Assembly (NCBI RefSeq): GCF_002797535.1
Contig: NZ_PGFD01000001.1
Span: 2,356,001 to 2,420,000 of the forward strand
Direction of reading: 5' to 3'
DNA: 64,000 bases
Origin: Chryseobacterium geocarposphaerae
GTDB lineage: Bacteria; Bacteroidota; Bacteroidia; Flavobacteriales; Weeksellaceae
Positions within the stretch are counted from its first letter, which is position 1. Every line of letters begins with the position of its first letter. The translations under genes and the position numbers were made by a program. Below are positions 28,014 to 45,041 of the stretch, one piece after another. A model generated the notes under the pieces. That model was not told where the DNA came from, ran no database searches, and saw only the letters and a list, made by a program, of their open reading frames with translations.

Positions 28014-28412
28014 GGGGTTGACTGGTTTCGACAGCAAGGTCAATGGATAAGTAAGCATGCAGAGAACCGTAGCGCGATCTCTATAATCCCTTGCTACAAA
28101 ATTTTAACTGGCAACGAAGAGTTCGCTCTTGCAGCTTAATATCGAAGTATAGTAGATCAAGCGTTTCCCTGAAGACTTTAGTAAGGGAGCAAGATATTCC
28201 ACAAATGCTCTGTTCTGCGGCGTTTGATCCTGGGATATAGGAATGCGGAAATAAGGTTTTAGATGCTTCGGCTAAAACTCGAAAATCTCAGAAGATAAGC
28301 TGAAAGTTGGGTGTCTGCTCTCTGCTTTCAGTCGAAAACCAATAGTAGAATAAGCATGTAGAAAGCTTATGTATTGCTTGTTTGGACGAGGGTTCGAATC
28401 CCTCCAACTCCA
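28014..28412 (+). ncRNA. ssrA: Transfer-messenger RNA (tmRNA)
   Basis: tmRNA rescues stalled ribosomes by trans-translation. The 5' end GGGGTTGACTGGTTTCGACAG pairs through GGGGTTG with the 3' acceptor CAACTCC at 28405-28411, with discriminator A at 28412. The T arm is GAGGGTTCGAATCCCTC. The tag reading frame at 28110-28139 encodes GNEEFALAA followed by TAA. The last 59 bases coincide with attL of the island, so the gene end is supplied by the integration site and is intact. Confidence 0.97.
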
Positions 28413-28413
28413 C
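28354..28413 (+). repeat. attL: 60-bp direct repeat, 3' end of ssrA
   Basis: The 60 bases starting GCATGTAGAAAGC and ending CAACTCCAC recur without change at 44982-45041. They cover the T arm and acceptor strand of tmRNA, a classical integrase target. Confidence 0.95.
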
Positions 28414-28423
28414 TTTCTAAACT

Positions 28424-28475
28424 AAAGAGAATTTGTAAATTATTGAATTTTAAATAATTACATTTTCTCTTTTTT
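28424..28475 (+). terminator. Element-borne terminator for ssrA
   Basis: A long imperfect hairpin: AAAGAGAA...TGTAA...TTATT on the left (from 28424) pairs with AATAAT-TACA...TTCTCTTT on the right (to 28472), followed by a T run. It lies 12 bases past the tmRNA 3' end inside the element and replaces the chromosomal terminator now at 45042. Confidence 0.7.
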
Positions 28476-28489
28476 GTTTTTGTGTCCGA

Positions 28490-28502
28490 AATTGTTCCCA
28501 AA
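28490..28502 (+). repeat. Shared 13-base word near the left end (possible integrase arm site)
   Basis: AATTGTTCCCAAA here recurs at 44913-44925 near the right end of the element. TCCGAA lies next to it at both ends. Arm-type integrase sites are the likely explanation, by inference from position. Confidence 0.4.
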
Positions 28503-28758
28503 TTATTTTTAGCTTTTTTAATCTATCTTAAAGAACAAATACTTTATTATGTAAAGATAATACTATTTTTGTTCAAAAATAGAATTGTAGTATTGCTTAT
28601 AGGTTTAATATTATTTAAAAATTAATATTTATCAAAAATGCGTCAAGATTTGACGTTAGCAAGTAATAGATTTGTTAAATTATTATTTATAACTATTCTA
28701 AATTACAATCTAATGATTAAATCGTTAACTTTCAAATTTTTAAAAGTCTTTTTTTGTA

Positions 28759-28766
28759 TAAATTTG
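28759..28766 (+). promoter_or_regulatory. -7 box of the Panacea operon
   Basis: TAAATTTG lies 18 bases upstream of the ATG at 28785; the -33 element is weak. It supports 28785 as the start. Further upstream an inverted repeat CGTCAA-GAT-TTGACG (28641-28655) could be an operator. The rest of 28476-28758 shows no gene. Confidence 0.55.
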
Positions 28767-28784
28767 CAAAAAGAATTACGTAAT

Positions 28785-29264
28785 ATGGCAAAAGTACAAA
28801 ATATTTTAGATGTTTCCGATTACATCATCTTTCGTACGAAGTCTGAAGGTGAAGGGTTCTTGAGTTTCTTAAAATTACAAAAATTACTATATTATACCCA
28901 AGCGTGGTATCTCGCTTTTAATAACGATAAACTCTTTGATTCTAATTTTCAAGCTTGGATTCATGGTCCAGTTAATAGATTATTATTTGACACCTATAAA
29001 CAATATAAATTCATGTATAGTGATATGTTAATAAGCGATATACAAGGAGATGGTTACAAAGAGCTTAGTGATGATATAAAACTCCATATTGATAATGTTT
29101 TGGATGCTTATGCTGGTTTCTCTTCTTCCGAACTAGAGCGTATGACTCACGAAGAAGACCCATGGATTGATGCTAGAAAGGGATTTTCTGATTACGAAAG
29201 ATGTGAAGTTATTATTAGTGATGATATAATGAAAAACTATTATGCCGCCAGAATTAAAAAATAG
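28785..29264 (+). CDS. Panacea-domain antitoxin (formerly DUF4065)
   Basis: A 159-residue protein. The Panacea core is clear: FLSFLKLQKLLYYTQAWYLA, then FQAWIHGPVNRLLFDTYKQY. Panacea proteins act as antitoxins paired with many unrelated toxins (the related SocA is a proteolytic adaptor). The start at 28785 was chosen because a -7 box lies just before it; the upstream in-frame ATG at 28638 would add a 49-residue extension without family resemblance. The gene overlaps the next one by 23 bases, the usual arrangement of a toxin-antitoxin pair. It is the first cargo gene after attL. Confidence 0.85.
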   Translation: MAKVQNILDVSDYIIFRTKSEGEGFLSFLKLQKLLYYTQAWYLAFNNDKLFDSNFQAWIHGPVNRLLFDTYKQYKFMYSDMLISDIQGDGYKELSDDIKLHIDNVLDAYAGFSSSELERMTHEEDPWIDARKGFSDYERCEVIISDDIMKNYYAARIKK

Positions 29265-29967
29265 AATTGTAGTTAATGAAAACAGCTACAATAGTAAAAA
29301 ACCAGTTGTTACAAAATCAAGACCAGAACAAAAGTACTGGTCTTTCTCTTTTAAATACTTTAGAGAAATTGAATATTTCGGTGTTGGTGATAAAAACGCA
29401 AGTTGGTTCATATCGGTTTTGGATAAACTTAAGGATATGTGCAATTATGACATAGATAGCTTTCTCGCAAACGCTACTATTAAACAAGCTAGTAGATATC
29501 ATAAAATAAATTGGGAACAAAAAAATATACCATTAGCAAGAGAAGATTTTAATTGGATTGATAAATCTATAATTCAAAATGATGATGAGTTTCCTTTTGT
29601 GCAATTTCAGATATCTAAATCGCTAGGTAGAGTTGTTGGCTTTTGGTATGAATCAATATTTTACATTGTTATACTAGATCCAATGCACAACATACAACCT
29701 GCAAAATCTTATAATTATGCAGTAGATAAAACTAAAATCGCTGACAATGATTATACTTCACTATTAATGGACATCGATAAAATAAGAAGAATTTCTTGTA
29801 ATCATGATTGTAATATATATAAAGAATTATGTTTAATCCCAACCAAGATGAACACTTCTAACTTTTACTACTTCTCATTAGAAGATGATTATTATGCTGA
29901 ATTTACAGAAAAAATTAAAGATAAATCAATTACGGAATTGATTGAATTGGGAATTGCAAGCCTTTAG
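29242..29967 (+). CDS. Partner of the Panacea antitoxin, putative toxin, family not recognised
   Basis: A 241-residue protein overlapping the antitoxin gene by 23 bases. I do not recognise a named toxin family. Visible features are KYFREIEYFGVGDKNASWF (about 38-56) and a central stretch SLGRVVGFWYESIFYIVILD followed by PMHNIQP, a beta-hairpin pattern ending in a DPxHN-like motif. Two Cys/His-containing segments (RRISCNHDCNIYKELC) near residue 195 could bind a metal. There is no signal peptide or membrane segment. The toxin role is inferred only from the overlap with a Panacea gene. Confidence 0.6.
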   Translation: MPPELKNRIVVNENSYNSKKPVVTKSRPEQKYWSFSFKYFREIEYFGVGDKNASWFISVLDKLKDMCNYDIDSFLANATIKQASRYHKINWEQKNIPLAREDFNWIDKSIIQNDDEFPFVQFQISKSLGRVVGFWYESIFYIVILDPMHNIQPAKSYNYAVDKTKIADNDYTSLLMDIDKIRRISCNHDCNIYKELCLIPTKMNTSNFYYFSLEDDYYAEFTEKIKDKSITELIELGIASL

Positions 29968-30036
29968 TAAAAAAAGGTTGTTTCAGAGCCATATTTACTA
30001 ATAACTTATTAACCTTTATTTAAGAGAACGTAAATA

Positions 30037-33000
30037 TTATGACAGTTCCATATTTTTATAAATAATGACATTTTCTCTATAAAAATATGCTTCTGAAGAA
30101 CCCAAGTCAATCATATTATTTAATATAAAAATATAATCTTCAATTAATTTTTTGTTTGATTTAATTTTTGAGATATGATTTAAGAAAAGTCGTTTTATTA
30201 ATCTCTCCGATGATTCGTAGGTTAATATAAATTTAAGGTTATTATCAATTTTAATTGCTTCCACAATAATTTTAATACCTTCTGGAAGTAAGGATTTATC
30301 TCCTATTGTGCTAAGCACTTTTATTATTGAAGGTAAGGCAATTGTTTTAAAGTCATTCATCATATTTTTATAAAAGTCTCTTTTAGCTTCCAAAACAATC
30401 CAATTTTTTGACTCATGTTTCCAATCAATACCTAAAAGTAAATAGTTTATTAAAAGTTTAGAATTCGAAACTTTTGCCTGGTTATAAAAAATCCCCCATA
30501 ACTGCCAAAATCTATTTGTATAATAATTTTTCAACACTATGTCTTCAGTATTTGCAACAAGTGCATCAATCTGTAAAATAAAATATTTCAAAAGGTCTTC
30601 TATAAATTTAAATTTATATTTTTTATAGTTATCCTTTTCATCGTTGTAAATCTGTTTTAATGTGCCAATAAATAATTCTCTATAGAGATTATCTTTATTA
30701 TGGATAAATGTATCTCTCAAATAGATACAAAAATCTAATAAACAACGATAATCTAATTCATTACTTTGTCTGAGGTACTGGTAATCCTCTTTATTTAAAA
30801 TACTAAAAATATATTCAAATATTTCTTTTTTATAATCAGTAAAATTATTATTCTCTGTATTGAAAGGAGTTATCAATATGGTTATAATTAAATTTTCCAT
30901 GATGAAATCCTTTAAATTTATTTCTCCAAAACTTATTTTAGAAGGAAGTATAATTTCGCTTTGTTTCTTTAAAAAATCATATTCTTCTTCAGCCAATCCT
31001 TGAACATGCTGTCTATCATAGTATTTATGCCTTGAAATAAACTCTTTTTTAAATTTAGAAAAGTTTAAAAACCCATACCATATTCTATTATGAATCATGG
31101 GGTATTTTAAACTTACACAATCTCTCGTATATTTATATATTTGATTTTTCTCGTTGTCAGAAAAATGGGCAGAAAGCATATATAAATATAAAACTATTAA
31201 TTCTGATAACTTTTCTTGGTTATCTAAATCCATTTCAAATAATAAATGAAATGATTCTAAAGCAAGATTCTTTTCAACTATATTATATTCTAATTCTATA
31301 TTAAAAGAATGTGATAAGTTAATTTTAATAATAGAGACAATTGTATTTTGAATTTTTGTTTTACACCAATTAATTTGTTCAGAATTTAATAAGTATCTAA
31401 ATTCGTTTAAGCCTATTACAGCTAAATGAACAGGTTTGTCAAAAAGACGGTCAAAATAAGCCTTATTTAAAAAGTAATTATAGCACTCATTCCAAACTTC
31501 AATAGTAATTGAAGAAGGTTCATTATAAGCGTTTGTTATTATATTTGAATACTTATATGTATTATTTTGTGAATTTTCTACTTCCTTATTAGCTTCTTGA
31601 AATTTTATTACAGAATCACTGTAGGAAGGCATTAACATATACCCATTATATTCTTCATGCTTTTCTTTTTTCCAATTTTTAAAATCCATTTCATCTAATT
31701 TTTTTTGCCAGAGTACATCTGACTCCTTGCATTCAGAAATCATCTTAGCAATAATATTCTGAATATTTTCATTAAATGTTTCGATTCTATATTGATATTC
31801 GATTACGAAATCTTCTAATCCTCTAAAATATTTCGTTCTATGTTCAAGCTTACCAAATGCTATTCTATTTTCAAACTCAGAATATAAAAGCTGTTCAGAG
31901 TGAGTATTTGTTTGCTCATTTAAAGCTCTATTACTATCCCAGCTATAAAATTCTTTCACAGTTAATAAAGGTAGGAACTTATCTCCAATCTCTTCGGGAT
32001 AAGCCATAGTAATACTCGCTAAAACTCCCATAGCAAAAACGTTATTGCTTTTCGTTATTATACTGTTAAAAATAGCTTGTATATGTTTTCTACTAGTTTC
32101 AGTTTTTAATTTAGCTAACTCCATTAGATAATATTCGGTAGACATTAGAATGCATTCTATTCCATAATGCGTAACACTCATACCTCTAAAGGCAATCCAC
32201 ATTTCAGGACTTCCAATTTGCTTTATTTTTTTACCATTACTTAACGTCAGCTCAATCTCTTTTAGTTCATTTTTATGTCTACACTTACTTTCTAAGTAGA
32301 ATTTTGAAGAATAATTTAAAAATTCAATTATGAAAGAAATACCTTCTTCAGTATTATATTTAAGTAAATAATAAATCGGAGTTCTAAATACTCCTGATGG
32401 GAAAAAAGCACTTTTATCTTTAATTCCCCAACATTTATCACCTTCTAATTCATCATTATTTTCCAGTAATTGACTGAGTGGAAATGAAATATCAGACTCT
32501 TTTACAATTTTTGCTTTCTTTTTTTCTAATTCTAATTTCCACTCCTTCCACATGGTATCTATAAGAAGTTCTGGAAGGTATTTTGAAAGAATTATTGCTC
32601 CTCTATCATTTAATGCAATATTAATAACTTTCTTATAAAAGCCATTTAATTTATAATCTCTTTCGTATCTATCAATGCTTAAAGATTCATAAATTAAATC
32701 ATGAATTTCCAATTTAGAAATTTTAGCTAATTGAAATAAAATGATTATTAAATCTTCAGTTTTATCGAAAATTGCAACTTCCTTATGCCAGAAATCATCT
32801 TTATTTTTTACCTGCTCTAAAAAATATAAAACAACTCTTTTAACTGAATTAAGCTCATCAAAAGAAATCTCTTTTTGGTTATACCATATTTTGTCATTCC
32901 AATTGGTAATAAAATGTAATATGCTAGTTCTTATATCTATTAAATCGATTATATTTTGTGAAATAAAAAAGATTGTTTCTTTCCAGCCTGAACCTATAGG

Positions 33001-35100
33001 GTTTAATATGGAACTACCATCTGTGAGAAAAATATACTCTCGACATGCTGTTTTAAGTAAATGCATAATTCTTGTTAGCAATCTTGTTTTAGTTTCTAAC
33101 AAATAATCTTTAAAAAAAATAAAGAAATTATTACTATTACTGGATTTCAAAACAGCAATTAAGGCTTCATCAGCCCAATAAGATTCAAACGAATTATCGG
33201 ATATTATATTTAATATCAATTCATTTAGTTTTGAGAAATCTTCAATCAAATTTTCTTCAATCCATAACCTAAACGCCCTTCTTATAGCAGGTTCATTACC
33301 TATTTGATTGAAAAATTCTTTTGTTGTGCTGGAAGCATCATAACACCTTGCAACATACTTGACTAAAGCCCAATCTTCTAAAATATCATGACTTGGACTG
33401 TAAGCCATGTCATTTACATCTTGAAAAATAATATTATCCTTTTCTAGCTCAAGAACAGCTTCCTCGTCAATATCTGATTTTGGTATTGTAAAAAGTCTCA
33501 TTTCTTTAGCTCTGTTCACAGCAATAGATATAAATGCCTTATCTCTTTTGATAGGCATTCCAGACGTTTTATTATGAACATTTATGACTAACTGATTCCA
33601 TAATATTTTTTTAAGTTCTATAATTGATACATTATCCAAATCTCCACTGTTAGTCTCTAGTGCTTTTAGTGAAAAATCTAAATACTTTGGGACTTGAATA
33701 AGGCTTTTTATCTGATTATTTTTAATTAAAGGAGATAATATTGGATAATTTTTTTGAATTTGTTCAAGTTCATTTTTATCTAAATATGGAACCGAGATAT
33801 ACCCTAATTTATCTTTATTTATTCCAAATTTTTGGACTATTAAATCTACTGAATATGTTCTTGAAGTTGCAACAATTTTAATATCATTATATTTCTCTTG
33901 TAAGGAAACTAATTGTTTAAATGAACAATCTGGGTCTGCTTCCAAAAGCCTTTCTAAACTATCTATAAAAATTATTTTAGATTTTGATAACGCAATAATC
34001 GAAAATATACCTTCTACCGAAATATTATTACCTATTTTTGAAAAAAGCTCAGAGAGGTTGGATATATTAAACTGGTCTGCTTTAAAAATAAAAGCTTCTG
34101 ATAGGATATTTTCTTTAGTAAGCAATTCTTTAACCAATGCAGACTTTCCAACACCTGCATTTCCCGTAACAATTGTAATACTATTATTTTGTACCTTTTG
34201 TATTAAGTTTTCAAGTATTTCTAAACGAGTTAAATGAAAATCTCCTATTTTATTTTTAATTGGTTCTAAAGTTAATAATCCATCTTGTCTAAATCTTTCA
34301 AGACAATCATAATACGGAACAATCTTAGCGGTATCAAAGTAAAAAAACACCTCTTCATCCCTGACACTTTTAGTAGTTACGCTTCCTCCGTCTTTATTTA
34401 ACTTGGAAACAACTGATAATATATTGCTCCAAATCTCAGTTTCAGTGATAGGATTTGTTTTGTTCTTGGAGACACTTATTAGGTTTTTAATATAACTTTC
34501 ATCCAAACTATTTTGATTTCCAAAATCATAATCAAATACTTCAAAACATTTTAAAAACTGCCATAAATCTTCATCTGTAATCTGATTATCATCATTTGCC
34601 TTTATTAAAACCTCTCTGAAAATGTTTAATTTTTCTTTTTTTATTGCTATTCTTTCTACTTCACTAATAAAATCGTCAGCATAGGCATGTGTTTTAGCCC
34701 AATTAAGTATAACTTTTATATGATTTCTTTCGTCATTTGTTAAACCATTAAGCACTAAAATTAAATAGTCATTTTTTTTATTAAACTTTTCAGAATTATA
34801 ATCCTTCCAAAAATCATTAATTACATCTATAAAAATAGAGTTGTTTACAGTAAAAGATAATTGTGTTTTTATTTGAAATAAGAGTTGGTGAGTTCCTTGA
34901 TTACTTTCTGTAATTACAAGCAAATCATCCGTATTAAAGCCTCTGTTTGTTGTTTGAAAAGCAATTTCAACTATTTTATTAGAAATATTAATTGGTGCGG
35001 AACCGTTAATTAACAGCATTGCCAGATAGGCAGATTGAACTGCTTGTTCAAAATTTGTACCTCCGCCACCCTTTTGGTAAACACTTCCTTTTTCTGCCAT
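30037..35100 (-). CDS. Nuclease-STAND NTPase, Avs-like antiphage protein
   Basis: A 1687-residue protein. Residues about 11-130 resemble a Cap4/DUF4297-type PD-(D/E)xK nuclease: GGGGTNFEQAVQSAYLAMLL, TDDLLV (D58/D59) and LLFQIKTQ (Q76, K78). A STAND-type NTPase follows: Walker A GNAGVGKS (313-320), Walker B KIIFIDSLERLL (D380), ATSRT (411-415), and a winged-helix-like SPSHDILEDWALVKYV (about 568-583). The remaining about 1100 residues are mostly helical and would be the sensor, as in Avs proteins, where a repeat domain recognises phage proteins and the N-terminal effector degrades DNA. Start at 35100 follows the family start near the nuclease. No HerA-like partner is present. Confidence 0.72.
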   Translation of the reverse strand: MAEKGSVYQKGGGGTNFEQAVQSAYLAMLLINGSAPINISNKIVEIAFQTTNRGFNTDDLLVITESNQGTHQLLFQIKTQLSFTVNNSIFIDVINDFWKDYNSEKFNKKNDYLILVLNGLTNDERNHIKVILNWAKTHAYADDFISEVERIAIKKEKLNIFREVLIKANDDNQITDEDLWQFLKCFEVFDYDFGNQNSLDESYIKNLISVSKNKTNPITETEIWSNILSVVSKLNKDGGSVTTKSVRDEEVFFYFDTAKIVPYYDCLERFRQDGLLTLEPIKNKIGDFHLTRLEILENLIQKVQNNSITIVTGNAGVGKSALVKELLTKENILSEAFIFKADQFNISNLSELFSKIGNNISVEGIFSIIALSKSKIIFIDSLERLLEADPDCSFKQLVSLQEKYNDIKIVATSRTYSVDLIVQKFGINKDKLGYISVPYLDKNELEQIQKNYPILSPLIKNNQIKSLIQVPKYLDFSLKALETNSGDLDNVSIIELKKILWNQLVINVHNKTSGMPIKRDKAFISIAVNRAKEMRLFTIPKSDIDEEAVLELEKDNIIFQDVNDMAYSPSHDILEDWALVKYVARCYDASSTTKEFFNQIGNEPAIRRAFRLWIEENLIEDFSKLNELILNIISDNSFESYWADEALIAVLKSSNSNNFFIFFKDYLLETKTRLLTRIMHLLKTACREYIFLTDGSSILNPIGSGWKETIFFISQNIIDLIDIRTSILHFITNWNDKIWYNQKEISFDELNSVKRVVLYFLEQVKNKDDFWHKEVAIFDKTEDLIIILFQLAKISKLEIHDLIYESLSIDRYERDYKLNGFYKKVINIALNDRGAIILSKYLPELLIDTMWKEWKLELEKKKAKIVKESDISFPLSQLLENNDELEGDKCWGIKDKSAFFPSGVFRTPIYYLLKYNTEEGISFIIEFLNYSSKFYLESKCRHKNELKEIELTLSNGKKIKQIGSPEMWIAFRGMSVTHYGIECILMSTEYYLMELAKLKTETSRKHIQAIFNSIITKSNNVFAMGVLASITMAYPEEIGDKFLPLLTVKEFYSWDSNRALNEQTNTHSEQLLYSEFENRIAFGKLEHRTKYFRGLEDFVIEYQYRIETFNENIQNIIAKMISECKESDVLWQKKLDEMDFKNWKKEKHEEYNGYMLMPSYSDSVIKFQEANKEVENSQNNTYKYSNIITNAYNEPSSITIEVWNECYNYFLNKAYFDRLFDKPVHLAVIGLNEFRYLLNSEQINWCKTKIQNTIVSIIKINLSHSFNIELEYNIVEKNLALESFHLLFEMDLDNQEKLSELIVLYLYMLSAHFSDNEKNQIYKYTRDCVSLKYPMIHNRIWYGFLNFSKFKKEFISRHKYYDRQHVQGLAEEEYDFLKKQSEIILPSKISFGEINLKDFIMENLIITILITPFNTENNNFTDYKKEIFEYIFSILNKEDYQYLRQSNELDYRCLLDFCIYLRDTFIHNKDNLYRELFIGTLKQIYNDEKDNYKKYKFKFIEDLLKYFILQIDALVANTEDIVLKNYYTNRFWQLWGIFYNQAKVSNSKLLINYLLLGIDWKHESKNWIVLEAKRDFYKNMMNDFKTIALPSIIKVLSTIGDKSLLPEGIKIIVEAIKIDNNLKFILTYESSERLIKRLFLNHISKIKSNKKLIEDYIFILNNMIDLGSSEAYFYRENVIIYKNMELS

Positions 35101-35500
35101 TTTAATAAATTTGTTTGTGAAATTTCTAATATAAAAATTATATATAGAATAACCAACAATACACTCAACAAGCCCCCCCTATCATCATAAACTTTTGATA
35201 CCCCCCTTGATTTTTTTTAAAAAAACTTACATGAAATTTCTTAAATTCAATATTTAAGAAAAATCTCATTTTTTTCTAAAGTTAATAAGACTAAAGACGT
35301 TTTAAAGATTTTTAAATGAATATTTAAAGTTTTATTTAATGAGTGGTATACTTTTTGGTACCTTATCGATCAACTACATAATGAATCAATAGAAGTGCTT
35401 TAGTTTTATAAAGTAACAGCAACCGACTTTTAAGCACGGTGCCACACGGAGTTAATCCAGATTCGGAGTATTTAATTAATATTCAAAATTTCTAAAGATT
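35101..35500. promoter_or_regulatory. Structured divergent intergenic region, possible origin or leader
   Basis: No coding region. In order: two C runs (C7 at 35173-35179 and C6 at 35201-35206) around the inverted repeat TATCA...TGATA; an 8-9 bp inverted repeat TTCTTAAA / TTTAAGAA (35238-35260); five phased words related to TTTAAAG at about 35290, 35301, 35311, 35323 and 35334; and a GC-richer stretch at 35412-35470 with GTGCTT (35395) complementary to AAGCAC (35432) and CCGA (35423) to TCGG (35463). Such a mixture can mark an origin, an operator region or a structured RNA; the sequence does not decide. Confidence 0.4.
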
Positions 35501-35528
35501 CATTGTTTTAAAACTATATAAAACAATG
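35501..35528 (+). promoter_or_regulatory. Perfect inverted repeat containing the start codon of the polymerase-like gene
   Basis: CATTGTTTTA (35501-35510) and TAAAACAATG (35519-35528) are perfect complements with an eight-base loop. The ATG of the downstream gene is the last three bases. In RNA the start codon would be paired; in DNA this could be an operator. Confidence 0.65.
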
Positions 35529-37427
35529 CAGACATCATTACAACCTACTTCTTTAACAAGATTCGAAAAACTACTCTTAATCCCGTCATCTATTAATATT
35601 GAAGAATTAAAAGAATCTGCTAATTCTTATGACAATAGAATAGATTACTACAAATTAGTTTCTCTAATAAGCTTGATAACAAGCAAAACTGTTAGTTATA
35701 ACATCGAGAAAGACCGATATTATTCATATAAAAAAATAAAAATTCATAGTAATCAACTAAAAAAGTGTTGTGGGAATAATTATAAAATCTACTACAACTT
35801 TTTATCTGAAATAAATATATTTTCTAAAAGAAGTCCTTATTCAAGAGACGAAAAAGGGGAAACATTTGGATATGGTTTCGCTAGTAATCACTTATACAAA
35901 AGATTAAAGTTTATTAAAATTAATACCTCAGAGCCGACTACTGATGATGTAAGCTTTAATAGTTCTTACACAAAGAAATATGAAAGAATTCTATACAAAC
36001 AATTTGATAGAACTAGATTTAGCATAGACTTTAATCTGGCAGAAGAAAGATTATCTACAAAATATTTAGGAAATATAAATTACCTAAATAAATCAGATAG
36101 TGCGAGAAACTGGGAAAAATATTCTTCTTATCATGGAGCTTTAAAACAATTGTTTAAGTTTCTTAATGGCGATTATAAATTTACTAGAAAATGTAAGCGA
36201 TATGAAAGAAAGCCATCTGGAAGATTTTATTCACCTTTAACTAGTTTAAATAAAATTATACGAAACTTACTTTATTACGATGGAAAAAAATTACAGCAAT
36301 TAGATGTAAAAAATATGTTTCCTTATTTATTGTCAAATTACCTACCCGAAATAGCCATCTTAAATTCAAAAAGAATAGATAGATTACGAAAATGCACAGC
36401 ATTCAATGCTAAGTATAACGTAAATAAAAAATTAAAAACAAAAGATTATCTACAAAACAACTGGGCAGAAGAGTCTACAAATAAAATTTATACGCATTTT
36501 TCATCTGTCAAATCCAAAAAAAGTTATTCTTCTAATAGTCTTATTAAAAAAAATGTTAGCCATTACCTCTTTTCAGCGAAAACTAAAAGCTTGTTTCAGT
36601 ATAGGGATAGCCACTTTCAAGAGTCTAGCAAAAATTTTTATTCTTTATTCAAATATGATTTATATAATGAAAAACAAAATAAAGGGCACTATTTACCACC
36701 AAAAAGTAATTTTAACCTGCTAAGTCAGAAGAGAACTAAAAGTAATATTTTTCCAAAAGGTTACACTAATCCCGAAGATTTATATATAAAAAACCATTTA
36801 GCTACACTTTATACTGGAACATTAAAAAGTCTGAAAATTTGTAATAGTTCTGACTTTCTTCAAAAGATTTGCTCTTCTTTAGATGAGTACTCTTACTATA
36901 TCTCGACTAAAACTCTCGAAACCCTTATGAATAAAGAGATTAAAAAGTTCAATACTCTCTCTGCGGAAGGAGTTATTTACGACCATTTTATTGAAGCTTT
37001 CATGAATCAAATCCCACTTATAGAATGGGCTAAAAATTATGAAAAATTGTTTAATGAAAATTACAATTATACTTATGGGCAAGACAGAGCTTTAACAAAA
37101 AAACTTTTTATTTCAATGCTTTACGCTCGAAACAATCATTATATAAGAGAACAGCAAATATTTAAATCAGAATTTCCAATTATATATGATTTAATACGAG
37201 AAAAGAAAAAAGATAACTACAAAACTATAACTCATCAACTATTTGATTTAGAATCTGAAATAATTGTTGATAGTGTTGCTCGTAGCTTAATTAAACAGGG
37301 AATTTCAACCTTTACTATACATGATTGCATTGCTGTGCCCGAGCAAGAAATTGAAGCTTCAAAATTGACATTAAATAATGCCTTTATTACAAAATTTGGA
37401 AATTGTCCAAGAATCGAATTAGAATAA
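35526..37427 (+). CDS. Putative family A-like polymerase (divergent)
   Basis: A 633-residue protein without a named family that I recognise. Four segments occur in the order expected of family A polymerases / T7-type RNA polymerases: SGRFYSPLTSLNKIIRNLL (231-249, compare TGRLSS...PNLQNI), motif A LQQLDVKNMFPYLL (D260), motif B R521-xxx-K525-x7-Y533 in DRALTKKLFISMLYA, and motif C TIHDCIAVPE (H599, D600). The R/K/Y spacing equals that of Pol I motif B. Between A and B lies an unusual insert of about 240 residues rich in Lys, Ser and Tyr. There is no 3'-5' exonuclease domain and no YxDD of reverse transcriptases. Possible roles are replication of the element or a defence polymerase. Activity is inferred. 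Confidence 0.5.
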   Translation: MQTSLQPTSLTRFEKLLLIPSSINIEELKESANSYDNRIDYYKLVSLISLITSKTVSYNIEKDRYYSYKKIKIHSNQLKKCCGNNYKIYYNFLSEINIFSKRSPYSRDEKGETFGYGFASNHLYKRLKFIKINTSEPTTDDVSFNSSYTKKYERILYKQFDRTRFSIDFNLAEERLSTKYLGNINYLNKSDSARNWEKYSSYHGALKQLFKFLNGDYKFTRKCKRYERKPSGRFYSPLTSLNKIIRNLLYYDGKKLQQLDVKNMFPYLLSNYLPEIAILNSKRIDRLRKCTAFNAKYNVNKKLKTKDYLQNNWAEESTNKIYTHFSSVKSKKSYSSNSLIKKNVSHYLFSAKTKSLFQYRDSHFQESSKNFYSLFKYDLYNEKQNKGHYLPPKSNFNLLSQKRTKSNIFPKGYTNPEDLYIKNHLATLYTGTLKSLKICNSSDFLQKICSSLDEYSYYISTKTLETLMNKEIKKFNTLSAEGVIYDHFIEAFMNQIPLIEWAKNYEKLFNENYNYTYGQDRALTKKLFISMLYARNNHYIREQQIFKSEFPIIYDLIREKKKDNYKTITHQLFDLESEIIVDSVARSLIKQGISTFTIHDCIAVPEQEIEASKLTLNNAFITKFGNCPRIELE

Positions 37428-37486
37428 AATATACAATGAGAAATGATTTACATTGAATTATCAAATCTATTTTACAAGAAATTGAA

Positions 37487-37517
37487 TTGAAAGATTCATT
37501 TTGAATTAATATCTTTG
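37487..37517 (+). promoter_or_regulatory. Promoter of the four-gene operon at 37.7-39.6 kb
   Basis: TTG (37487-37489), 20 bases, TATCTTTG (37510-37517). Transcription would start near 37523 and produce a leader of about 215 bases that contains the inverted repeat at 37556-37671. Confidence 0.75.
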
Positions 37518-37555
37518 CTGCTTACTTCAACGAAAAAGAGAAAACTTTTGCAATT

Positions 37556-37671
37556 GTAATACGAATCGGCAAAATTCAAATTTGACACAAAATGCAAACA
37601 GTTTAGCTCCTTGCCATATAATGGTGAGGGCTTTCCTGTTATGTGTCAAAGCTTTGCCGAGCTTGTATTAC
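37556..37671 (+). repeat. Long nested inverted repeat (hairpin leader or miniature element)
   Basis: From outside inwards, four pairs of arms match: GTAATAC / GTATTAC, CGGCAAA / TTTGCCG, TTTGACACA / TGTGTCAAA and AACAG / CTGTT. The centre CCTTGCCAT-ATA-ATGGTGAGG pairs over 9 bp with two G-U pairs. Unequal internal loops separate the arms. It lies between the promoter at 37487 and the lipoprotein gene. Confidence 0.7.
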
Positions 37672-37738
37672 TAACATGGATAAGTACCTCACTTTTTTGT
37701 TGTTCATAATAACATTATTAACAATAAAATTCAATTAT

Positions 37739-38143
37739 ATGAAACAATTATTTCTTACAGCTGCTGTAGCTACCTTTGTAGTAAACTGTTCTAATAGCGA
37801 TGATATCTCATCAACATCACAGCAAAATAATCCTGTAACAACCCAATACTTTCATCCTCCAACATGGATTCAAGGCTCATGGAAAGTTGGCAACACATCT
37901 TATTACAAATTCACAAATGATGATTTTATCTATGTAATGAATGGAACAAGTTACAAAGCAATTCTGACGCAAACTGCAAGTAATGGACAGACTGCAAAAG
38001 TTGATGAAACAATTACTGATACCGATTACAACTTCACTATCACTGCTGGTGCATCAAGTGGAACTTATAAATTTAAAAAGATAAGTACCAGTCAAATTCA
38101 ATGGCTAAATGGAGTTAATAATAACATTTTAGATAAAGAATAA
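37739..38143 (+). CDS. Small lipoprotein of unknown function
   Basis: I start at 37739 (MKQLFLTAAVATFVVNCSNSDD), giving 134 residues with a typical lipobox (VVNC, Cys 17). Upstream in-frame starts at 37643 and 37676 would put a hydrophobic extension in front of a complete lipoprotein signal, and the former would begin inside the inverted repeat. The mature part has TWIQGSWKVGNTSYYKFTND, a lipocalin-like start (WxGxW-type) seen in many small Bacteroidota lipoproteins. It ends with a stop before a canonical C-terminus is evident. First gene of a four-gene unit; function unknown. Confidence 0.65.
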   Translation: MKQLFLTAAVATFVVNCSNSDDISSTSQQNNPVTTQYFHPPTWIQGSWKVGNTSYYKFTNDDFIYVMNGTSYKAILTQTASNGQTAKVDETITDTDYNFTITAGASSGTYKFKKISTSQIQWLNGVNNNILDKE

Positions 38144-38152
38144 ATTAGAAAC

Positions 38153-38626
38153 ATGAAAAAGATTTTATTCTTAAAAATATTTTTTCTTTCATGTTCATTC
38201 CTATACTGTCAAGGATTTGATGTGAAAAAAGATGGAAGTTCAGTAACAGCCTTTAATGGTTATAAATTATCGTATGTTCAATACAAATTAGATGCTGATA
38301 CAAAAGAAATTTACGATAGAATTGATAACAATAGGATAAAAGTACTTATTAGTTTTAATATTGATTGGGATTGTGTTACATGTGTATTAAACTATATTGG
38401 AACAGGAAGCATATCTGTCTTTGAAGGAAATTACAGAACTGATTACACAATTTCAACAGGTTACTATAGTAGAAATGGGGATATAGAAAGTTACAAGTTC
38501 TACTACAATAACAAAGAGGTTGGAACTATATTAGGTACAAAAGGTTCTGCAGTATCAATTGTGCTCAATAATCATGAAGGCAGATATTTTAAATACTACA
38601 CTGGGATTACAAATTTTGCACAATAG
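38153..38626 (+). CDS. Small secreted protein of unknown function
   Basis: A 157-residue protein with signal peptide MKKILFLKIFFLSCSFLYCQ and a beta-rich mature part. Two Cys (DWDCVTC, about 73-76) form a CxxC-like pair. I recognise no family. It starts 9 bases after the lipoprotein gene and ends 6 bases before the next, so it is cotranscribed. With the lipoprotein it makes the envelope part of the operon. Confidence 0.6.
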   Translation: MKKILFLKIFFLSCSFLYCQGFDVKKDGSSVTAFNGYKLSYVQYKLDADTKEIYDRIDNNRIKVLISFNIDWDCVTCVLNYIGTGSISVFEGNYRTDYTISTGYYSRNGDIESYKFYYNNKEVGTILGTKGSAVSIVLNNHEGRYFKYYTGITNFAQ

Positions 38627-38632
38627 AATTAT

Positions 38633-38818
38633 ATGTATAAGATGCTACTTTATAAAATAAATAAAATTCGCATGTGGTTATTTTCCTCAATACCAGATGA
38701 AGAAATGGATATTATAACAATTCCACCTTACGATTATTCTCAATTTTTTGATGAGAATGTAATAAAGAGGCTGGAGTATTTTGAATTCTTGTTTAATGAT
38801 GAATCTAAAAAAGTTTGA
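38633..38818 (+). CDS. Small protein of unknown function (61 residues)
   Basis: A 61-residue protein with a basic, hydrophobic N-terminus (MYKMLLYKINKIRMWLFSSI) and an acidic second half (DEEMDIITIPPYDYSQFFDE). No family is recognised. Its 3' end overlaps the start of the next gene by about 23 bases, which suggests coupling and supports it being real. It could be a regulator, immunity or membrane-peptide component. Confidence 0.5.
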   Translation: MYKMLLYKINKIRMWLFSSIPDEEMDIITIPPYDYSQFFDENVIKRLEYFEFLFNDESKKV

Positions 38819-39554
38819 TATACCTTCTTTATTCCCCATAGACCATCCTCCATTTGTTAGGGTGATACTATATTATCTAAAACAACATGGAATTACTGAA
38901 TTTGGAGGTGTAAGCTATTTTTCACAGATAAATTATGAAGACATTGAAACATCGTTATTCGAGGCTGGATTTAAGGGAAAAGGCTACATAGACAAATTAA
39001 TTATAGATGAATGGGATAAAGCTGACAAAACATATTTTTTATTTAACTTAACGAGGTTTGCTTATAATTTTCAAACAAATTATAGAAATTGGAATATTGA
39101 AAAATACACATACATAGAGGTTCAAAATAGGAATCAAAAGTTAAAGAACAAATATTATGAGCTTGTGAGTGTAATAGACCGTTTACAAGGTTATTTAGAA
39201 TCTTTTGAGCTACGATTACGAATAGATAGCAACTATATAGACAGGGAAACAATTTACCAGTGTTTAACACCTTTTTGCATAATATCAGTAAAGTGTGATG
39301 AACTTGGTAATTTCAGTATCAAGTATGCTTTAGCTCCCGATTTAAGAACTATAATAACAGACCTTTTAGCCAGTATTTTGGAAAAGAGAATTTTAGATAC
39401 TCAAATGACCGACTTAAAAGATTATGTCAAACAAACAATATTTGAAAGTGATTTCAAAGATAGATTTACTGCCAGATTGAAAGAAAATTCACTTTTATAT
39501 AAAGGATTTAAAAAGGATTTTCCAATATATGTTTTGAGAAACAAGCATAAGTAA
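38796..39554 (+). CDS. Protein of unknown function (252 residues)
   Basis: I start at the ATG at 38796 (MMNLKKFDIPSLFPIDHPPF); an alternative ATG follows at 38799. The protein has no signal peptide or membrane segment. Its middle, about residues 110-150 (EVQNRNQKLKNKYYELVSVI), looks helical with coiled-coil character. Its C-terminal third contains TDLLASILEKRILDTQMTDL. No family is recognised. It is the last gene of the operon and is followed by a strong terminator. Confidence 0.6.
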   Translation: MMNLKKFDIPSLFPIDHPPFVRVILYYLKQHGITEFGGVSYFSQINYEDIETSLFEAGFKGKGYIDKLIIDEWDKADKTYFLFNLTRFAYNFQTNYRNWNIEKYTYIEVQNRNQKLKNKYYELVSVIDRLQGYLESFELRLRIDSNYIDRETIYQCLTPFCIISVKCDELGNFSIKYALAPDLRTIITDLLASILEKRILDTQMTDLKDYVKQTIFESDFKDRFTARLKENSLLYKGFKKDFPIYVLRNKHK

Positions 39555-39578
39555 ATAACTAATCTTTAGTTCAAAATA

Positions 39579-39608
39579 AAATCTCTCATTCTCACATGAG
39601 AGATTTTT
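39579..39608 (+). terminator. Terminator of the four-gene operon
   Basis: The 11-bp stem AAATCTCTCAT / ATGAGAGATTT with a six-base loop, followed by T residues, 25 bases past the stop at 39554. Confidence 0.85.
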
Positions 39609-39707
39609 TAAATTTATATAACGTGGTAACATAACTGTCCTGAAACCACCATTAAAAAACTGATTACCAGTAATAAACAAATTACAAATAGCAGATTGTA
39701 TGTTTTA

Positions 39708-42700
39708 TTAATCGTTATAACTAGCTGTTAATATAGAATTATTATTTTTCATGTAAATTCTTTTGATAAATCCAAGCTCTCGAAGATTTTCTAAGAAAAC
39801 TTTATTTTCATCCGAATTGTCAATTTCTATTTTTTCTTTTTGAAGTATTAAAGAAAATGGCTTACCCAATTGTTCAATATACTTTCTAAACTGTAAAGTA
39901 TCAATACTATCTTTCTCAAAATTCAAAAGAAAAATCTTGTCACTAATTATTAATTGTGACTCCATTACTGAATCAACAAAAAATTCTGAATATTGATGAA
40001 ATTTATTCTCTTTGAAAATATTTATTAAAACCTCTAAAAAGGAAGTATCCTCACTATTGTACATTTCATTATCAGTTAAAAAATCAAAAATTAGCAACTT
40101 TAATTCTGGATTAATATTTGCCATAAATATCGCTTTCCAACTATCAATTGGAAGCTCCAAATTGGAATAGGTTTCATTTAGTTCAACTTCTTTTTTTTCA
40201 CATATTGCTATAATTTCAATTTCGGATAAAGATGATAGATTTTCAGAATTTAAAATAATATTTCCATTACTAATTAATTTTGGAATTCTTTCTGTTTTTT
40301 CAATAACTGATGTTTCATCAAAATTAACAGTTAAAGAATCAATTAATTCATCAAATGCATCATTCGAAATCTCACTGTTTATCAACGAGATATTAAAATT
40401 TGTAATCAATTCATCTGTTAAGTGATTTTCATTTTCATCAATAGAATCATTTATGCAGATTAATTTCAATCGGTTGTAGTTCTCTTCTTTATTGAGGAAT
40501 TCCTCTATTACAAAATCAATTTCCTTATTATTATAATTGTAGTAAGATAGAATATTTATCCAATGTGGTAAAATTCTATTATTAATGAAAAGAGGAACCC
40601 ATAGCTCAGTATCTATATTGGTAATTTTTTGTACTGTAAAATCTATTTTTCTTATTAAGGCAGTTCTATTACTTATAGTAATTTCATCATTATTCAGTAA
40701 TGTCTCAACCACTTCAATTTCTTCCTCATTATTATTATCTAATTTTAATAATACATTTTCTACATAATAATTTATATTATCGCTAACATTTTCTTTAAGC
40801 GCAATGCAATCCGAGTTTAGAAGAGCTGTGTAATTATTAGTACTATATGAGTATTGGATGTAATCTGGATTGGAATATTTTGCAAGGAAAAGATTAATAT
40901 TATTGATGTCAATAACATATAAATTATTATTCATTACTTGCAGAATCCAATCATGTAGAGAAGCCTCATATTTGATTTCCTTGAATTTAATTCCTAACGA
41001 TTTTAATTTATTAAAAATTTCTTCTTTTCTGTTCTCATTATAATTATTTAATAAAAAATCATCGTAATCTTCCAAAAATTCTTTTATCTTATTTTCTTTA
41101 TTAAGACTTTTTATTTCATCAATATTGTTTACCCTAAACAAAATATCAATAATTTTCTTTTTCTTTTTTAAACTAAATATATCCTCGTTATGCACTAAAT
41201 ACCAAAAGTCCTCCCAAGAAGATATTTTTAATATAAAAGTGTGGGTATAGCCTGAAATTTCGGAGTATTCTATATACTTATCAATAAAATCAACAGACTT
41301 ATCGTTTGTATTTGATATTGTGTTGAGAAATTCTTCTAATTTATGTGTCAACACCTCATTATTTTTAAAATTTCCTAACAGATAGTCTAAAATATAAAAA
41401 TTTAAAATAGATTCCTTTTTAAAATTAGCAATACTCAATTCTGAAATCAAATTTTTAGGCTTATTTATAACATCATTAAAGGCAGTTTCCCCATCTTCAA
41501 TAATTTTCAATTTGAGATTATAATCATTTTCACTGATAGATTCTGGATAGAAAAGAGATATATAATTAGAATAGTTTTCATCGAGATAATTATTAGTAAT
41601 TATAACTTTAAGCAAACTATATTTTCGGTGTTCATTCGCAATGTTATTTTCAATACTTAATCCATCACCAAGTTCAATTTTATCATTTGCATCTACAAAG
41701 GCTTTAGTAAAATATTCTTCTATATGTTTTCTGTCAGCCTTTTGAAATAGCTGGTTTAAAGACGAATTTTTTAACTTGTTAATTCTTTTTCTTAGTTTTC
41801 GAATTTCAAAATTATTAGATTGTTTTTTATTATTCAATTTATCTTCTATTCTTTTTTTCCTGTCAATATAACCAGCATCAGGATTTACCTTCGTTTCAAT
41901 ATTAGCAAATGACAAAAATGTAGTTCTTCCCCCTAAGGTATATGACAGAGTTCCCTTATTTACAAATTGTTCAAACTTTTCTTCTTTTATTAAATCTTGT
42001 ACTTGTAAGGAATCCTCATCTATATTATATCTTATAGCACCAAATGAATCCAAAAGTAGTTGAGAAAGATAAATCATTTGTAATTCTATGAGGCTAGATT
42101 GTCTTTCTAACTCAATATTTGAATTGTCTTCTTCTAGTAATTCTATATCCTTCTTGATTTGCTTTACTATATCAGAATAAAAAATACTTTTTAACTCAAA
42201 TATTTTATAAATAATCCCTTCTTTATTTTGTAAACTTTTAAATTCAATAGGATACATGTTTTTAATAACAATTAAAGAAAACAGCTTATTTCCATTTAAC
42301 GCTTGATTTTCCTTACTCTTTATTTTATAATAAGTTTTAAATTCATTAATGATATTAATGAGACTTCTCATATCATTTACATAAGGTGAAATATCGTTTA
42401 TAATATCCTCAGAAATAATATCCTCATTAATAAAATCGTCCTTTAATCTTTTAATAAATTGTGTATTAGAATTACTATAGTCCACAACTGGAATCACAGG
42501 AATGATTAAATCAAAAAATTTAGTTTTTTCATTATTTTTACTAAACAACTCATCTTTTACAGCGTAAATAAAAGTCACTTTTTGAACTATATCTTTCGAA
42601 TTATTTATTATAATGTTGAGTTCTCGAAGCTTAATAAATACCTCTACAGCATCCTCAAACCTATCAATATCTTCAATGAAGACAATTTGTGTTCGAGTCT

Positions 42701-43484
42701 TTTCAAAGAAATATATTAGCTCATCAACATGTTTATTAATTATAGAAATATCATTATCTTTTGGAACAAATTCAGCATCACTAAAACTTACTTTATTTAC
42801 TTTTAACTTAAAGAGCTGTTTAAATATTTTTTTTAAAATAAAGAAAACTCCTAATAAAAAAGAAAACTTCATAAGATAAACATAATAAAAAGACTCCTCT
42901 CTATTAATAAGATACAATTTCTGGTATATTTTGTCGAAGAAAAGATAAAGTATTGATAAAGCCCAAATAATAAAAAAAACTACTTTAATAAAAATGAATC
43001 TATCAAAAGTAATTCTTTCAAATCTCGAATCTTTTAAGTTTTTCTTTTTCTCATAATAAAGAATTTGCTGAACAATACTTGTTTCAATGTCAACTTCTGT
43101 TTGTTTATTCTTTTCTTCAAATTTCCCTAAGTTAATATCTAAGATTTTAAACTCAGGATTATTCTTTTTAAACAAATTTAGAATTGTACTTTTACCAGTA
43201 CCAAAAGAACCAGAAATTGCAATATTTCGAACATTATTATTTAATACTCCCCATTTTAAGGAATTCAAATATGTTTGGAGATTATAGTTGCTTTCTTCAT
43301 CTTTTAAAATATATGGAGTAAGGTCTTCTAAGTTGTTTGGATTGTCATTATTCTTTACCAAAAGTTTCATTTTTTTTCTACCCAAAAAAAGTATTGCTCC
43401 TGATAAAAGATTTAAATAAAACTCAGTTGATAATATTTTAAACTCTAAATACCTTTCTCTTATCTCGTTTAATAGTTTCTTCAT
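39708..43484 (-). CDS. YobI/KAP-type membrane-anchored P-loop NTPase
   Basis: I start at 43484 (MKKLLNEIRERYLEFK), giving 1258 residues; an ATG at 43517 adds 11. The N-terminal part matches YobI-like NTPases: EDLTPYILKDEESNYNLQTY, then Walker A in ISGSFGTGKSTILNLF. Two transmembrane segments lie between Walker A and Walker B (about 161-183 and 200-219), the hallmark of KAP NTPases, and an extra hydrophobic segment precedes residue 40. Walker B is IVFIEDIDRF. The long C-terminal part is helical and acidic. KAP NTPases occur in defence loci such as QatABCD. The function of YobI proteins is unknown. Here it is a solitary gene on the minus strand next to the integrase. Confidence 0.72.
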   Translation of the reverse strand: MKKLLNEIRERYLEFKILSTEFYLNLLSGAILFLGRKKMKLLVKNNDNPNNLEDLTPYILKDEESNYNLQTYLNSLKWGVLNNNVRNIAISGSFGTGKSTILNLFKKNNPEFKILDINLGKFEEKNKQTEVDIETSIVQQILYYEKKKNLKDSRFERITFDRFIFIKVVFFIIWALSILYLFFDKIYQKLYLINREESFYYVYLMKFSFLLGVFFILKKIFKQLFKLKVNKVSFSDAEFVPKDNDISIINKHVDELIYFFEKTRTQIVFIEDIDRFEDAVEVFIKLRELNIIINNSKDIVQKVTFIYAVKDELFSKNNEKTKFFDLIIPVIPVVDYSNSNTQFIKRLKDDFINEDIISEDIINDISPYVNDMRSLINIINEFKTYYKIKSKENQALNGNKLFSLIVIKNMYPIEFKSLQNKEGIIYKIFELKSIFYSDIVKQIKKDIELLEEDNSNIELERQSSLIELQMIYLSQLLLDSFGAIRYNIDEDSLQVQDLIKEEKFEQFVNKGTLSYTLGGRTTFLSFANIETKVNPDAGYIDRKKRIEDKLNNKKQSNNFEIRKLRKRINKLKNSSLNQLFQKADRKHIEEYFTKAFVDANDKIELGDGLSIENNIANEHRKYSLLKVIITNNYLDENYSNYISLFYPESISENDYNLKLKIIEDGETAFNDVINKPKNLISELSIANFKKESILNFYILDYLLGNFKNNEVLTHKLEEFLNTISNTNDKSVDFIDKYIEYSEISGYTHTFILKISSWEDFWYLVHNEDIFSLKKKKKIIDILFRVNNIDEIKSLNKENKIKEFLEDYDDFLLNNYNENRKEEIFNKLKSLGIKFKEIKYEASLHDWILQVMNNNLYVIDINNINLFLAKYSNPDYIQYSYSTNNYTALLNSDCIALKENVSDNINYYVENVLLKLDNNNEEEIEVVETLLNNDEITISNRTALIRKIDFTVQKITNIDTELWVPLFINNRILPHWINILSYYNYNNKEIDFVIEEFLNKEENYNRLKLICINDSIDENENHLTDELITNFNISLINSEISNDAFDELIDSLTVNFDETSVIEKTERIPKLISNGNIILNSENLSSLSEIEIIAICEKKEVELNETYSNLELPIDSWKAIFMANINPELKLLIFDFLTDNEMYNSEDTSFLEVLINIFKENKFHQYSEFFVDSVMESQLIISDKIFLLNFEKDSIDTLQFRKYIEQLGKPFSLILQKEKIEIDNSDENKVFLENLRELGFIKRIYMKNNNSILTASYND

Positions 43485-43602
43485 TGTTTTAGTTTGATGC
43501 CAAATTACAATTTTCAAACTAAAATTAAAAGCTTATGAATATTTTGAAGATGTTAACAAGTAGTTAATTCACTAAAGGTCTTTTTAATAAATTATAAAAA
43601 AA

Positions 43603-44898
43603 TTAAAAACCTAAGCTTTTAAATATTTTTGCTGTTGATTTCGCTTTTTCTACATCGGTTTTACTTATATAAGCTAATAATTGCCTCTCTGTTTTATGTC
43701 CAGTAAAATTTAATAAGTAAGTAATAGGAATTTTTTCATAAAAATTTGTGGCAAAACTTTTGCGTCCAATGTGAGAGGTCACTAGTTCATATTTGGGATA
43801 ATCACCAAAAACTTTTCTTGTAATTTTAGACAAATCCTCTCTCTCGATTGTCATAGTTTTTCCATTATATAAAACCTCATCAATATCTGCGAACTTACAA
43901 ACGTCTTTAATATATAGATTAAGATTTACATCTGAAATCTTGCGTGGGAATTCACCTCCTCTTTTGAGTAAAATATTTTGCACCTTGTGTAGTAGTGGAA
44001 TTTGCATCTTAGTTCCTGTTTTGATTTGATTAAACTCTATGTAAGATTGATTTTCATCATCCTGTATAATCATACTGGAATTAAACCTCAAATAATCACT
44101 AACTCTCTGTCCTGTATAGCAAGCTATCAATAACCAGTCTCTTGCGTTATCCAAGTGCTCATTTGGCATTTCTGCTTTTTCTATTTTGTCTAATTCTTCG
44201 AAAGTAAGATAAATAGATTTTGGGATATTTTTAGATGCTTTCTCTATATCAAACTTCCATAAAAAAGTATGTTTGTGTACTACCAAATCAAGAGACTCAG
44301 CAACCTTACAAATCATTTTTAAAAATTTAAGATTTCGATAAGTTGTAGATATTTTATAATTCTCTCGAAGGCAATATTTTTCAAAATCCACCCTAAAAGA
44401 GTTGTCTAAATCAGAGAACTTTAAATGCTTAAATGTCTTCTTTCGAGCTCTAAGGTCATCACAGTAACGTTTTAATAACTGTTTAACAACATTTGCTTTT
44501 TTAATTGTTGAGTCACTTACAACATCTTTTTTCAAACTAATATAGTCATCAATAAATAAAAGAATATTATCTGACTGTTGTTTGATATTTTCTGAAACAA
44601 CTTTTTCAGGTGAAATAATTAAATCTAGCCACTCCTTTAAATCGAGTTCAGGTTTATAATTTGAATACTCTGAAATAATTTTTGTCTCAAGCTTGATAAG
44701 CTTAATATTTATTTCAGCTTTTTCAATATTAGAATTTCTTGATGTTACTATACATTTACCATTTTTCCAATCTTTTGGTTTACATTTTAAGTATGGTATA
44801 GGTGTCTTCACATCTATATTTTTATCCCTTAATCGTACCCATATTGTACTCTCTTTATTTTCAACTTTACCTCTGTTAAAAAAACTAATTGATGCCAT
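43603..44898 (-). CDS. Tyrosine integrase of the ssrA island
   Basis: A 431-residue integrase with an arm-binding N-terminal part, a SAM-like core-binding domain (about 105-205) and a catalytic domain containing all expected residues: R265 (YTGQR), K293 (IKTGTK), H376 and R379 (SHIGRK), H401 (TGHKTE) and Y410 (LLAYIS). This is the arrangement of Bacteroidota phage/ICE integrases. It begins 84 bases from attR and reads into the element. It most likely recombines the 60-bp sites at 28354 and 44982. Confidence 0.93.
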   Translation of the reverse strand: MASISFFNRGKVENKESTIWVRLRDKNIDVKTPIPYLKCKPKDWKNGKCIVTSRNSNIEKAEINIKLIKLETKIISEYSNYKPELDLKEWLDLIISPEKVVSENIKQQSDNILLFIDDYISLKKDVVSDSTIKKANVVKQLLKRYCDDLRARKKTFKHLKFSDLDNSFRVDFEKYCLRENYKISTTYRNLKFLKMICKVAESLDLVVHKHTFLWKFDIEKASKNIPKSIYLTFEELDKIEKAEMPNEHLDNARDWLLIACYTGQRVSDYLRFNSSMIIQDDENQSYIEFNQIKTGTKMQIPLLHKVQNILLKRGGEFPRKISDVNLNLYIKDVCKFADIDEVLYNGKTMTIEREDLSKITRKVFGDYPKYELVTSHIGRKSFATNFYEKIPITYLLNFTGHKTERQLLAYISKTDVEKAKSTAKIFKSLGF

Positions 44899-44912
44899 AA
44901 TTCTTGATTCAA

Positions 44913-44981: not shown

Positions 44982-45041
44982 GCATGTAGAAAGCTTATGT
45001 ATTGCTTGTTTGGACGAGGGTTCGAATCCCTCCAACTCCAC
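44982..45041 (+). repeat. attR: 60-bp direct repeat of the ssrA 3' end
   Basis: Identical to 28354-28413. It is an isolated copy of the tmRNA T arm and acceptor strand, followed by the chromosomal terminator that once ended ssrA. Confidence 0.95.

Follow-up and report, generated by a model that had tools for sequence, protein, structure and literature searches.

We report here that the gene at positions 35526..37427 (plus strand) of a 64,000-nucleotide stretch of Chryseobacterium geocarposphaerae DNA (contig NZ_PGFD01000001.1, 2,356,001 to 2,420,000; hereafter the window, whose numbering is used throughout) encodes a member of the superfamily A polymerases without an exonuclease. The gene belongs to a small mobile element of 16.6 kb that inserts into the chromosome. 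We consider it probable (about 0.6) that the protein is the DNA polymerase, or primase-polymerase, of this integrative element and copies the element's DNA. Direct support comes from the motifs, the fold as seen in the close relative P0027, the element ends, the integrase, the empty insertion sites and the association of the family with recombinases.

Motifs and domains of the polymerase

The gene and its predicted features are as follows.

35526..37427, plus strand: family A polymerase without exonuclease; 633 amino acids (aa), an intact, stop-free open reading frame (ORF)
35565..35924, plus strand: N-terminal domain (aa ~14-133), a probable winged helix in predicted models
36222..36224, plus strand: R233 in SGRFY (S231-Y235), the template-side Arg of family A; kept in 24/24 diverse family members
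36303..36305, plus strand: D260, the catalytic Asp of motif A; kept in 24/24, closes the model strand 254-260
36429..36896, plus strand: disordered Lys/Ser/Tyr-rich insert (aa 302-457); predicted local distance difference test (pLDDT) score <50; missing from relatives of 471-488 aa
37086..37124, plus strand: motif B, R521-K525-Y533, within model helix 517-533; placed by model and conservation
37314..37328, plus strand: motif C, TIHDC (T597-C601), with D600; D600 kept in 24/24

Our close set comprises 25 proteins, the window protein and 24 others matching at E <= 0.01. G232, R233, F234, D260, R521 and K525 are unvarying across this set, and D600 is found in all but P0023 (24/25), which is cut short. 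Among the 24 diverse family members, R233, D260, Y485 and D600 are each kept in all, K525 and E576 in 23, H599 in 22 and R521 in 20. Since the motif residues are conserved in relatives, the motif match is not a chance one. An earlier note, made from the sequence of the window alone, had described a 633-residue protein with SGRFY at 231-235, D260, R521-K525-Y533 and TIHD with D600; these positions are right and the residues are conserved. It had also singled out a Cys in place of Glu in motif C. Cys601 is present, but of the 24 diverse members 16 have Ser and 6 have Cys as the third residue of motif C, and Cys is thus unremarkable within the family.

D260 and R521 are 261 residues apart, of which the insert takes up about 160 (roughly 297-460). 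The earlier figure of about 240 Lys/Ser/Tyr-rich residues between motifs A and B was therefore too high, whereas the insert itself is real. Relatives of 471-488 aa do without it, and the window protein owes its length to the insert. Most family members are about 430-560 aa long, with no nuclease match in those scanned. Models of the N-terminal domain mix helices and strands and are winged-helix-like.

Relation to DNA polymerase I

Profile-profile comparison, a check proposed in the earlier note, related the family to DNA polymerase I (Pol I). The family profile (66 rows, with the window protein entered twice) matched the Pol I alignment at 78.5% (P 1.7e-5) over 191 columns spanning all motifs. 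Two control alignments gave 0.2%, and six phage RNA polymerases gave 4.7% over 36 columns only. P0027 is a compact close relative with a confident model, and its right-hand fold matches Pol I from thumb to palm. All of its structural neighbours among the best 50 listed are DNA polymerases, a list from which absence excludes nothing. Identity to Pol I is 8-15% among the structural alignments listed.

PF00476 had no match at E <= 0.1 in the window protein and, within the cut-offs applied, none in 11 other members. Nothing confident was found for the window protein in Pfam, PHROGs, PADLOC or NCBIfam; a PDB sequence search returned nothing for it and one weak, unrelated match for family alignment A2. 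The members encoded at loci L161 and L052 match PHROG 4756 (unknown function) at 8.5e-32 and 5.6e-4, respectively, and the member at L062 matches PHROG 15971 (DNA polymerase I) at 0.002. The host has, besides Pol I, a second gene above the DNA_pol_A cut-off (L169, G000:C3:33526-34431).

An element inserted at the tmRNA gene

The element occupies positions 28414-45041 and is delimited by the following features.

28014..28413, plus strand: transfer-messenger RNA (tmRNA) gene found by ARAGORN, whose 3' end is the attachment (att) site
28354..28413, plus strand: left att repeat, the final 60 tmRNA bases; exact 60-bp direct repeat
44982..45041, plus strand: right att repeat; exact 60-bp direct repeat, with empty sites elsewhere
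43603..44898, minus strand: tyrosine integrase (PF00589 E 9.8e-8, PF13102 E 7.7e-8), just inside the right att repeat

When the outer flanks are joined, they match a contiguous empty site in at least 5 of 148 genomes of the genus (G028, 93% over 498/500 bases; G069 and G094, 88%; G088, 76%; G026, 75%). Most other genomes among the matches listed match the tmRNA part only. In G184 the same flanks lie about 17 kb apart and enclose a set of integrase, helix-turn-helix (HTH) gene and polymerase of its own (L054, G184:C7:184200-204199); L059 and L060 each have a tmRNA tail copy with an integrase no more than 250 bp away. The sequence AAATTGTTCCCAAA occurs near both ends of the window element (28489-28502 and 44912-44925) and is perhaps an integrase arm site.

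Recombinases accompany the family

A survey of genomic neighbourhoods, which the earlier note had called for, found a tyrosine or serine recombinase within 10 kb of the polymerase in 48 of 60 genomic loci. These loci are the window and 59 of 60 chosen fetched regions, with the viral loci L061-L067 excluded; L051 was dropped because none of the pieces of its polymerase reaches 380 aa. The L051 polymerase is split into two frames (9287-10039 and 10199-10717) with stops between them, which suggests decay. Tyrosine integrases account for 38 of the 60, 29 of them upstream in the orientation of the polymerase and 9 downstream facing it, and serine recombinases for 14. An HTH_17-type gene is present in 30/60, in 24 of these less than 700 bp upstream on the same strand. 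Chance would give about 4%, from the integrase density in 34 such genomes, a rough and somewhat low expectation because the background counts PF00589 matches only. If five viral loci are counted, the figures are 41 with an integrase and 51 with either recombinase, of 65. The loci are not independent; L056/L057 and L142/L143 appear almost identical. Pfam checks were run on samples of both the integrase and the HTH set: two of seven sampled integrases matched an N-terminal or core-binding integrase domain only and did not match PF00589, and at least one true integrase (L147) escaped the integrase model.

Repeat-bounded elements that overlap or adjoin a tRNA gene were also found at L134 (tRNA-Arg, 10.8 kb), L161 (tRNA-Leu, ~13 kb), L160 (tRNA-Lys, 16.3 kb) and L155 (tRNA-Asn, 17 kb), and L142 has a 22-bp repeat near tRNA-Val (~6.8 kb). 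Most loci had no such end repeats within the 20 kb fetched. The element at L147, likewise bounded by repeats at a tRNA gene (tRNA-Met), is about 5.4 kb long and holds the polymerase, the integrase and four small or secreted-looking ORFs; the polymerase is its sole evident replication gene. The close relatives L041-L044 share the order ArdA - serine recombinase - polymerase and, unlike the window element, have no tyrosine integrase in the fetched stretch.

Named close homologues are from Chryseobacterium. Matches occur in 43 of 173 genomes of the genus, with five full-length matches of the long form, the window's own included, and shorter relatives of about 471-488 residues. In evenly drawn samples, 31/395 genomes of the order and 16/395 of the phylum match. 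The family also reaches phages: the large uncultured phages L061 and L062 (LR756501 and LR756504, 636-735 kb) encode members of 397-424 aa. Against phage records, tblastn of the window protein hit three huge-phage records, that of L161's protein 39 records, mostly of Vibrio and Aeromonas phages, and that of L008's protein five uncultured phages. IMG/VR scans with alignment A1 and with the single proteins of L008, L007 and L052 gave nothing confirmed; a scan with alignment A3 gave five loci.

Other genes of the element

The remaining genes and the region before the polymerase are listed below.

28638..29264, plus strand: SocA/Panacea antitoxin-like protein (PF13274 E 1.4e-19), cargo
29242..29967, plus strand: possible partner of the Panacea gene, which it overlaps; Pfam and PADLOC matches sub-threshold only
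30037..35100, minus strand: Avs4-type STAND NTPase (PADLOC Avs4 E 1.5e-128), cargo
35300..35525, plus strand: AT-rich upstream region, weakly structured (z -2.46, 2/200 shuffles)
37643..38143, plus strand: putative lipoprotein; lipoprotein-like N-terminus by eye, no confident Pfam match
38153..38626, plus strand: putative secreted protein, 157 aa; signal-like N-terminus by eye, no Pfam match
38781..39554, plus strand: unknown-function protein; a homologue follows the polymerase in five other loci; no Pfam match
39708..43517, minus strand: YobI-type NTPase / Tmn-like gene (PF20693 E 8.6e-91, PADLOC Tmn E 9e-77), cargo

The element also holds two 61-aa ORFs. Pfam and PADLOC searches of its nine larger proteins matched no exonuclease, helicase, primase, relaxase or virion gene, in line with the earlier statement that there is no exonuclease domain and that the element has no other replication gene; the Avs-like neighbour mentioned there is the Avs4 gene. 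We take Avs4, the Tmn-like gene and the Panacea pair for cargo; the anti-phage genes next to the polymerase look like its passengers and not its partners.

Comparison with known systems

The transposon-virus polymerase (TV-Pol) was described in 2008 by Iyer, Abhiman and Aravind, who proposed a primase-polymerase activity for it (PMC2579912). Its family A core of 400-600 aa has no exonuclease and contains a template-side Arg, two catalytic Asp and RxxxK. It occurs in bacterial mobile elements, including those of Bacteroidetes, beside lambda-type integrases or gamma-delta resolvases and also at integration hot spots that hold restriction-modification genes (PMC2579912). The window family is alike in its nuclease-free core, R233 (24/24), R521 (20/24), K525 (23/24) and recombinase neighbour (48/60). 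It differs in the N-terminal domain, which is all-helical in a subset of TV-Pol and a probable winged helix here, in the disordered insert, which is absent from the TV-Pol description, and in the window element, which is without a helicase match. For the conserved fingers Asp of TV-Pol, D520 is a candidate only, being invariant in the close group and present in 5/24 diverse members. Ma-LMM01, a TV-Pol carrier (PMC2579912), gave no family-profile match at E <= 10 over its whole record; 12 proteins of one 50-kb stretch reached at most 0.7% by hhalign, and the TV-Pol gene there was not pinpointed. The window polymerase is of the same kind as TV-Pol and a possible member of that family.

Like the window protein, divPolA2 of Caudoviricetes has a family A palm without exonuclease and an N-terminal globular domain. 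It differs in that this domain was reported to be without known relative, and in barbaviruses it is a phage gene in a variable neighbourhood beside a separate PolB (PMC11348598). Structural matches (BFVD) of the window family include Rheinheimera Barba and Aeromonas phage proteins, all weak (E >= 0.035). divPolA2 may be a phage cousin of the window family. The CcPol-MP primase of staphylococcal cassettes is reportedly also the subject of PMC7581432. CcPol likewise belongs to family A and to a mobile element, but performs primer-independent DNA synthesis only with MP, a separate SSB-like (single-stranded DNA-binding) partner, and lies with a helicase (PMC10061031). No such pair is evident here.

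Bacterial Pol I shares the palm, fingers and thumb fold and the motif order, whereas the window family lacks nuclease domains and has HDS/HDC for HDE. Pipolins use tyrosine recombinases and tRNA or tmRNA sites and carry defence genes. They too are integrative elements encoding their own DNA polymerase, which is of family B (piPolB) there, as opposed to the family A fold here (PMC7385651). A 2026 survey of bacterial DNA polymerases distinguishes PolA1, PolA2, PolA3 and a PolA1-like group, none of which is described as the window family in the part available (PMC12926913). In the literature covered (titles and abstract openings, few subscription journals), this Bacteroidota element family is undescribed save for the general TV-Pol paper.

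Proposed mechanism and alternatives

We propose the following model for the element. The integrase would cut the element out in circular form, and the winged-helix-like N-terminal domain would guide the protein to an origin. The polymerase would then copy the excised circle and may also initiate strands on its own, as has been suggested for TV-Pol. Such copying would keep the element from loss and support its transfer, and the cargo of Avs4, the Tmn-like gene and the Panacea pair would favour carriers of the element.

Several observations weigh against this model. No origin was found in the element, and by model no excisionase-like HTH gene stands beside the polymerase in the window element, whose integrase is 6 kb off. 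No recombinase was detected within 10 kb in 12 of the 60 loci, including L147, whose integrase was found later. Plasmid relatives amount to 0 records for the window protein and one for L008's protein. The structure check suggested in the earlier note yielded a Pol I-like hand for P0027, but the window protein's own model matched no PDB structure at E <= 0.001. Even P0027 scores poorly in Foldseek, with TM-scores of 0.18-0.36 of the query and root-mean-square deviations of ~10-23 in the rows listed. The polymerase activity itself is a prediction from sequence and models. Finally, Pol I-type DNA polymerases have a Glu five residues past the motif A Asp, and this residue is Gln in 16/24 diverse members and Phe in the window protein; motif C, as HDS/HDC, is akin to that of T7-type RNA polymerases. 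These two features leave the choice of nucleotide open as far as the sequence goes.

One alternative is that the protein is a T7- or mitochondrial-type RNA polymerase or primase, which would transcribe the element or only make its primers. We regard this as unlikely: the family profile aligns with Pol I across all motifs and with the phage RNA polymerases over a short segment only, and the listed neighbours of P0027, within the limit stated for them, are DNA polymerases.

Alternatively, an active polymerase might serve repair or fill-in at excision and integration and not replication. Integrases are often paired with the polymerase, and a repair role was suggested by the divPolA2 authors (PMC11348598). 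Against this, the host is already equipped with Pol I and another family A gene, and the majority of elements carried by an integrase manage without a dedicated polymerase. A repair or fill-in role is improbable in our view.

Upstream region and downstream cassette

The region before the polymerase had been described as structured, and its predicted fold is somewhat better than that of shuffled sequences. In L041-L044, however, the polymerase starts 0-7 bp after the serine recombinase gene and leaves no room for an upstream fold. A retron-like upstream RNA was rejected on the same grounds; RNA elsewhere was not sought. Eight sister loci (L045-L051 and L132) have a conserved hairpin between the HTH gene and the polymerase, at most 150 bp upstream. 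Its stem, GATTTCAAGCA/TGCTTGAAGTC, follows a conserved stretch resembling CCTAAAAATTTTATTG, and 5 of 27 predicted pairs are changed on both sides. The hairpin is possibly a leader, attenuator or origin. By exact pattern the hairpin is absent at the window locus (L001), a weak test, as the pattern also missed L047. L132 combines a longer polymerase (499 aa) with the same 260-aa HTH gene, and the hairpin may therefore go with the integrase/HTH module.

Downstream, a cassette of lipoprotein-like, small secreted-looking and unknown-function genes follows the polymerase in the window (37643-39554), in L041-L044 and in L058, where it follows even a distant 431-aa polymerase. The cluster of the lipoprotein at 37643..38143 occurs in 8 of 23 loci compared, the window counted.

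This cassette, the upstream fold and the position between Avs4 and the Tmn-like gene are what would favour an enzyme like those of retrons or defence-associated reverse transcriptases (DRTs), one that would make a nucleic acid which sets off or carries out an immune response, possibly together with the structure before the gene or the genes after it. This defence reading is not supported and is the least probable of the explanations: relatives keep company with recombinases, in four close relatives directly behind the serine recombinase gene; PADLOC gives no match for the polymerase and matched 1 of 10 large neighbour proteins elsewhere, not all of which were shown to lie inside an element; no defence gene was seen tracking the polymerase across loci; and small elements without an evident defence gene (ORFs read by eye, not all scanned) retain the polymerase. 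The earlier note had weighed a defence module against an element replicase, and its interpretation holds in part. The recombinase company counts against the former, and the att repeats, integrase and empty sites favour the latter.

Implications

With the replicase reading preferred, an unnamed gene becomes a likely replication enzyme of mobile elements that occupy tRNA or tmRNA sites and in some cases carry anti-phage genes. A tentative extension, possible though doubtful, is that integrative elements of this class are widespread in Bacteroidota and correspond, with a family A polymerase, to the pipolins. In such elements an integrase and one protein that recognises the origin through a winged helix, primes and extends would form the core and travel with exchangeable anti-phage cargo. 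If a single protein both recognises the origin and primes, this would be a minimal replication system. It would also offer a model for the beginnings of family A polymerases that can be put to the test, and would explain how the Avs4 and Tmn-like genes arrived at the tmRNA site.
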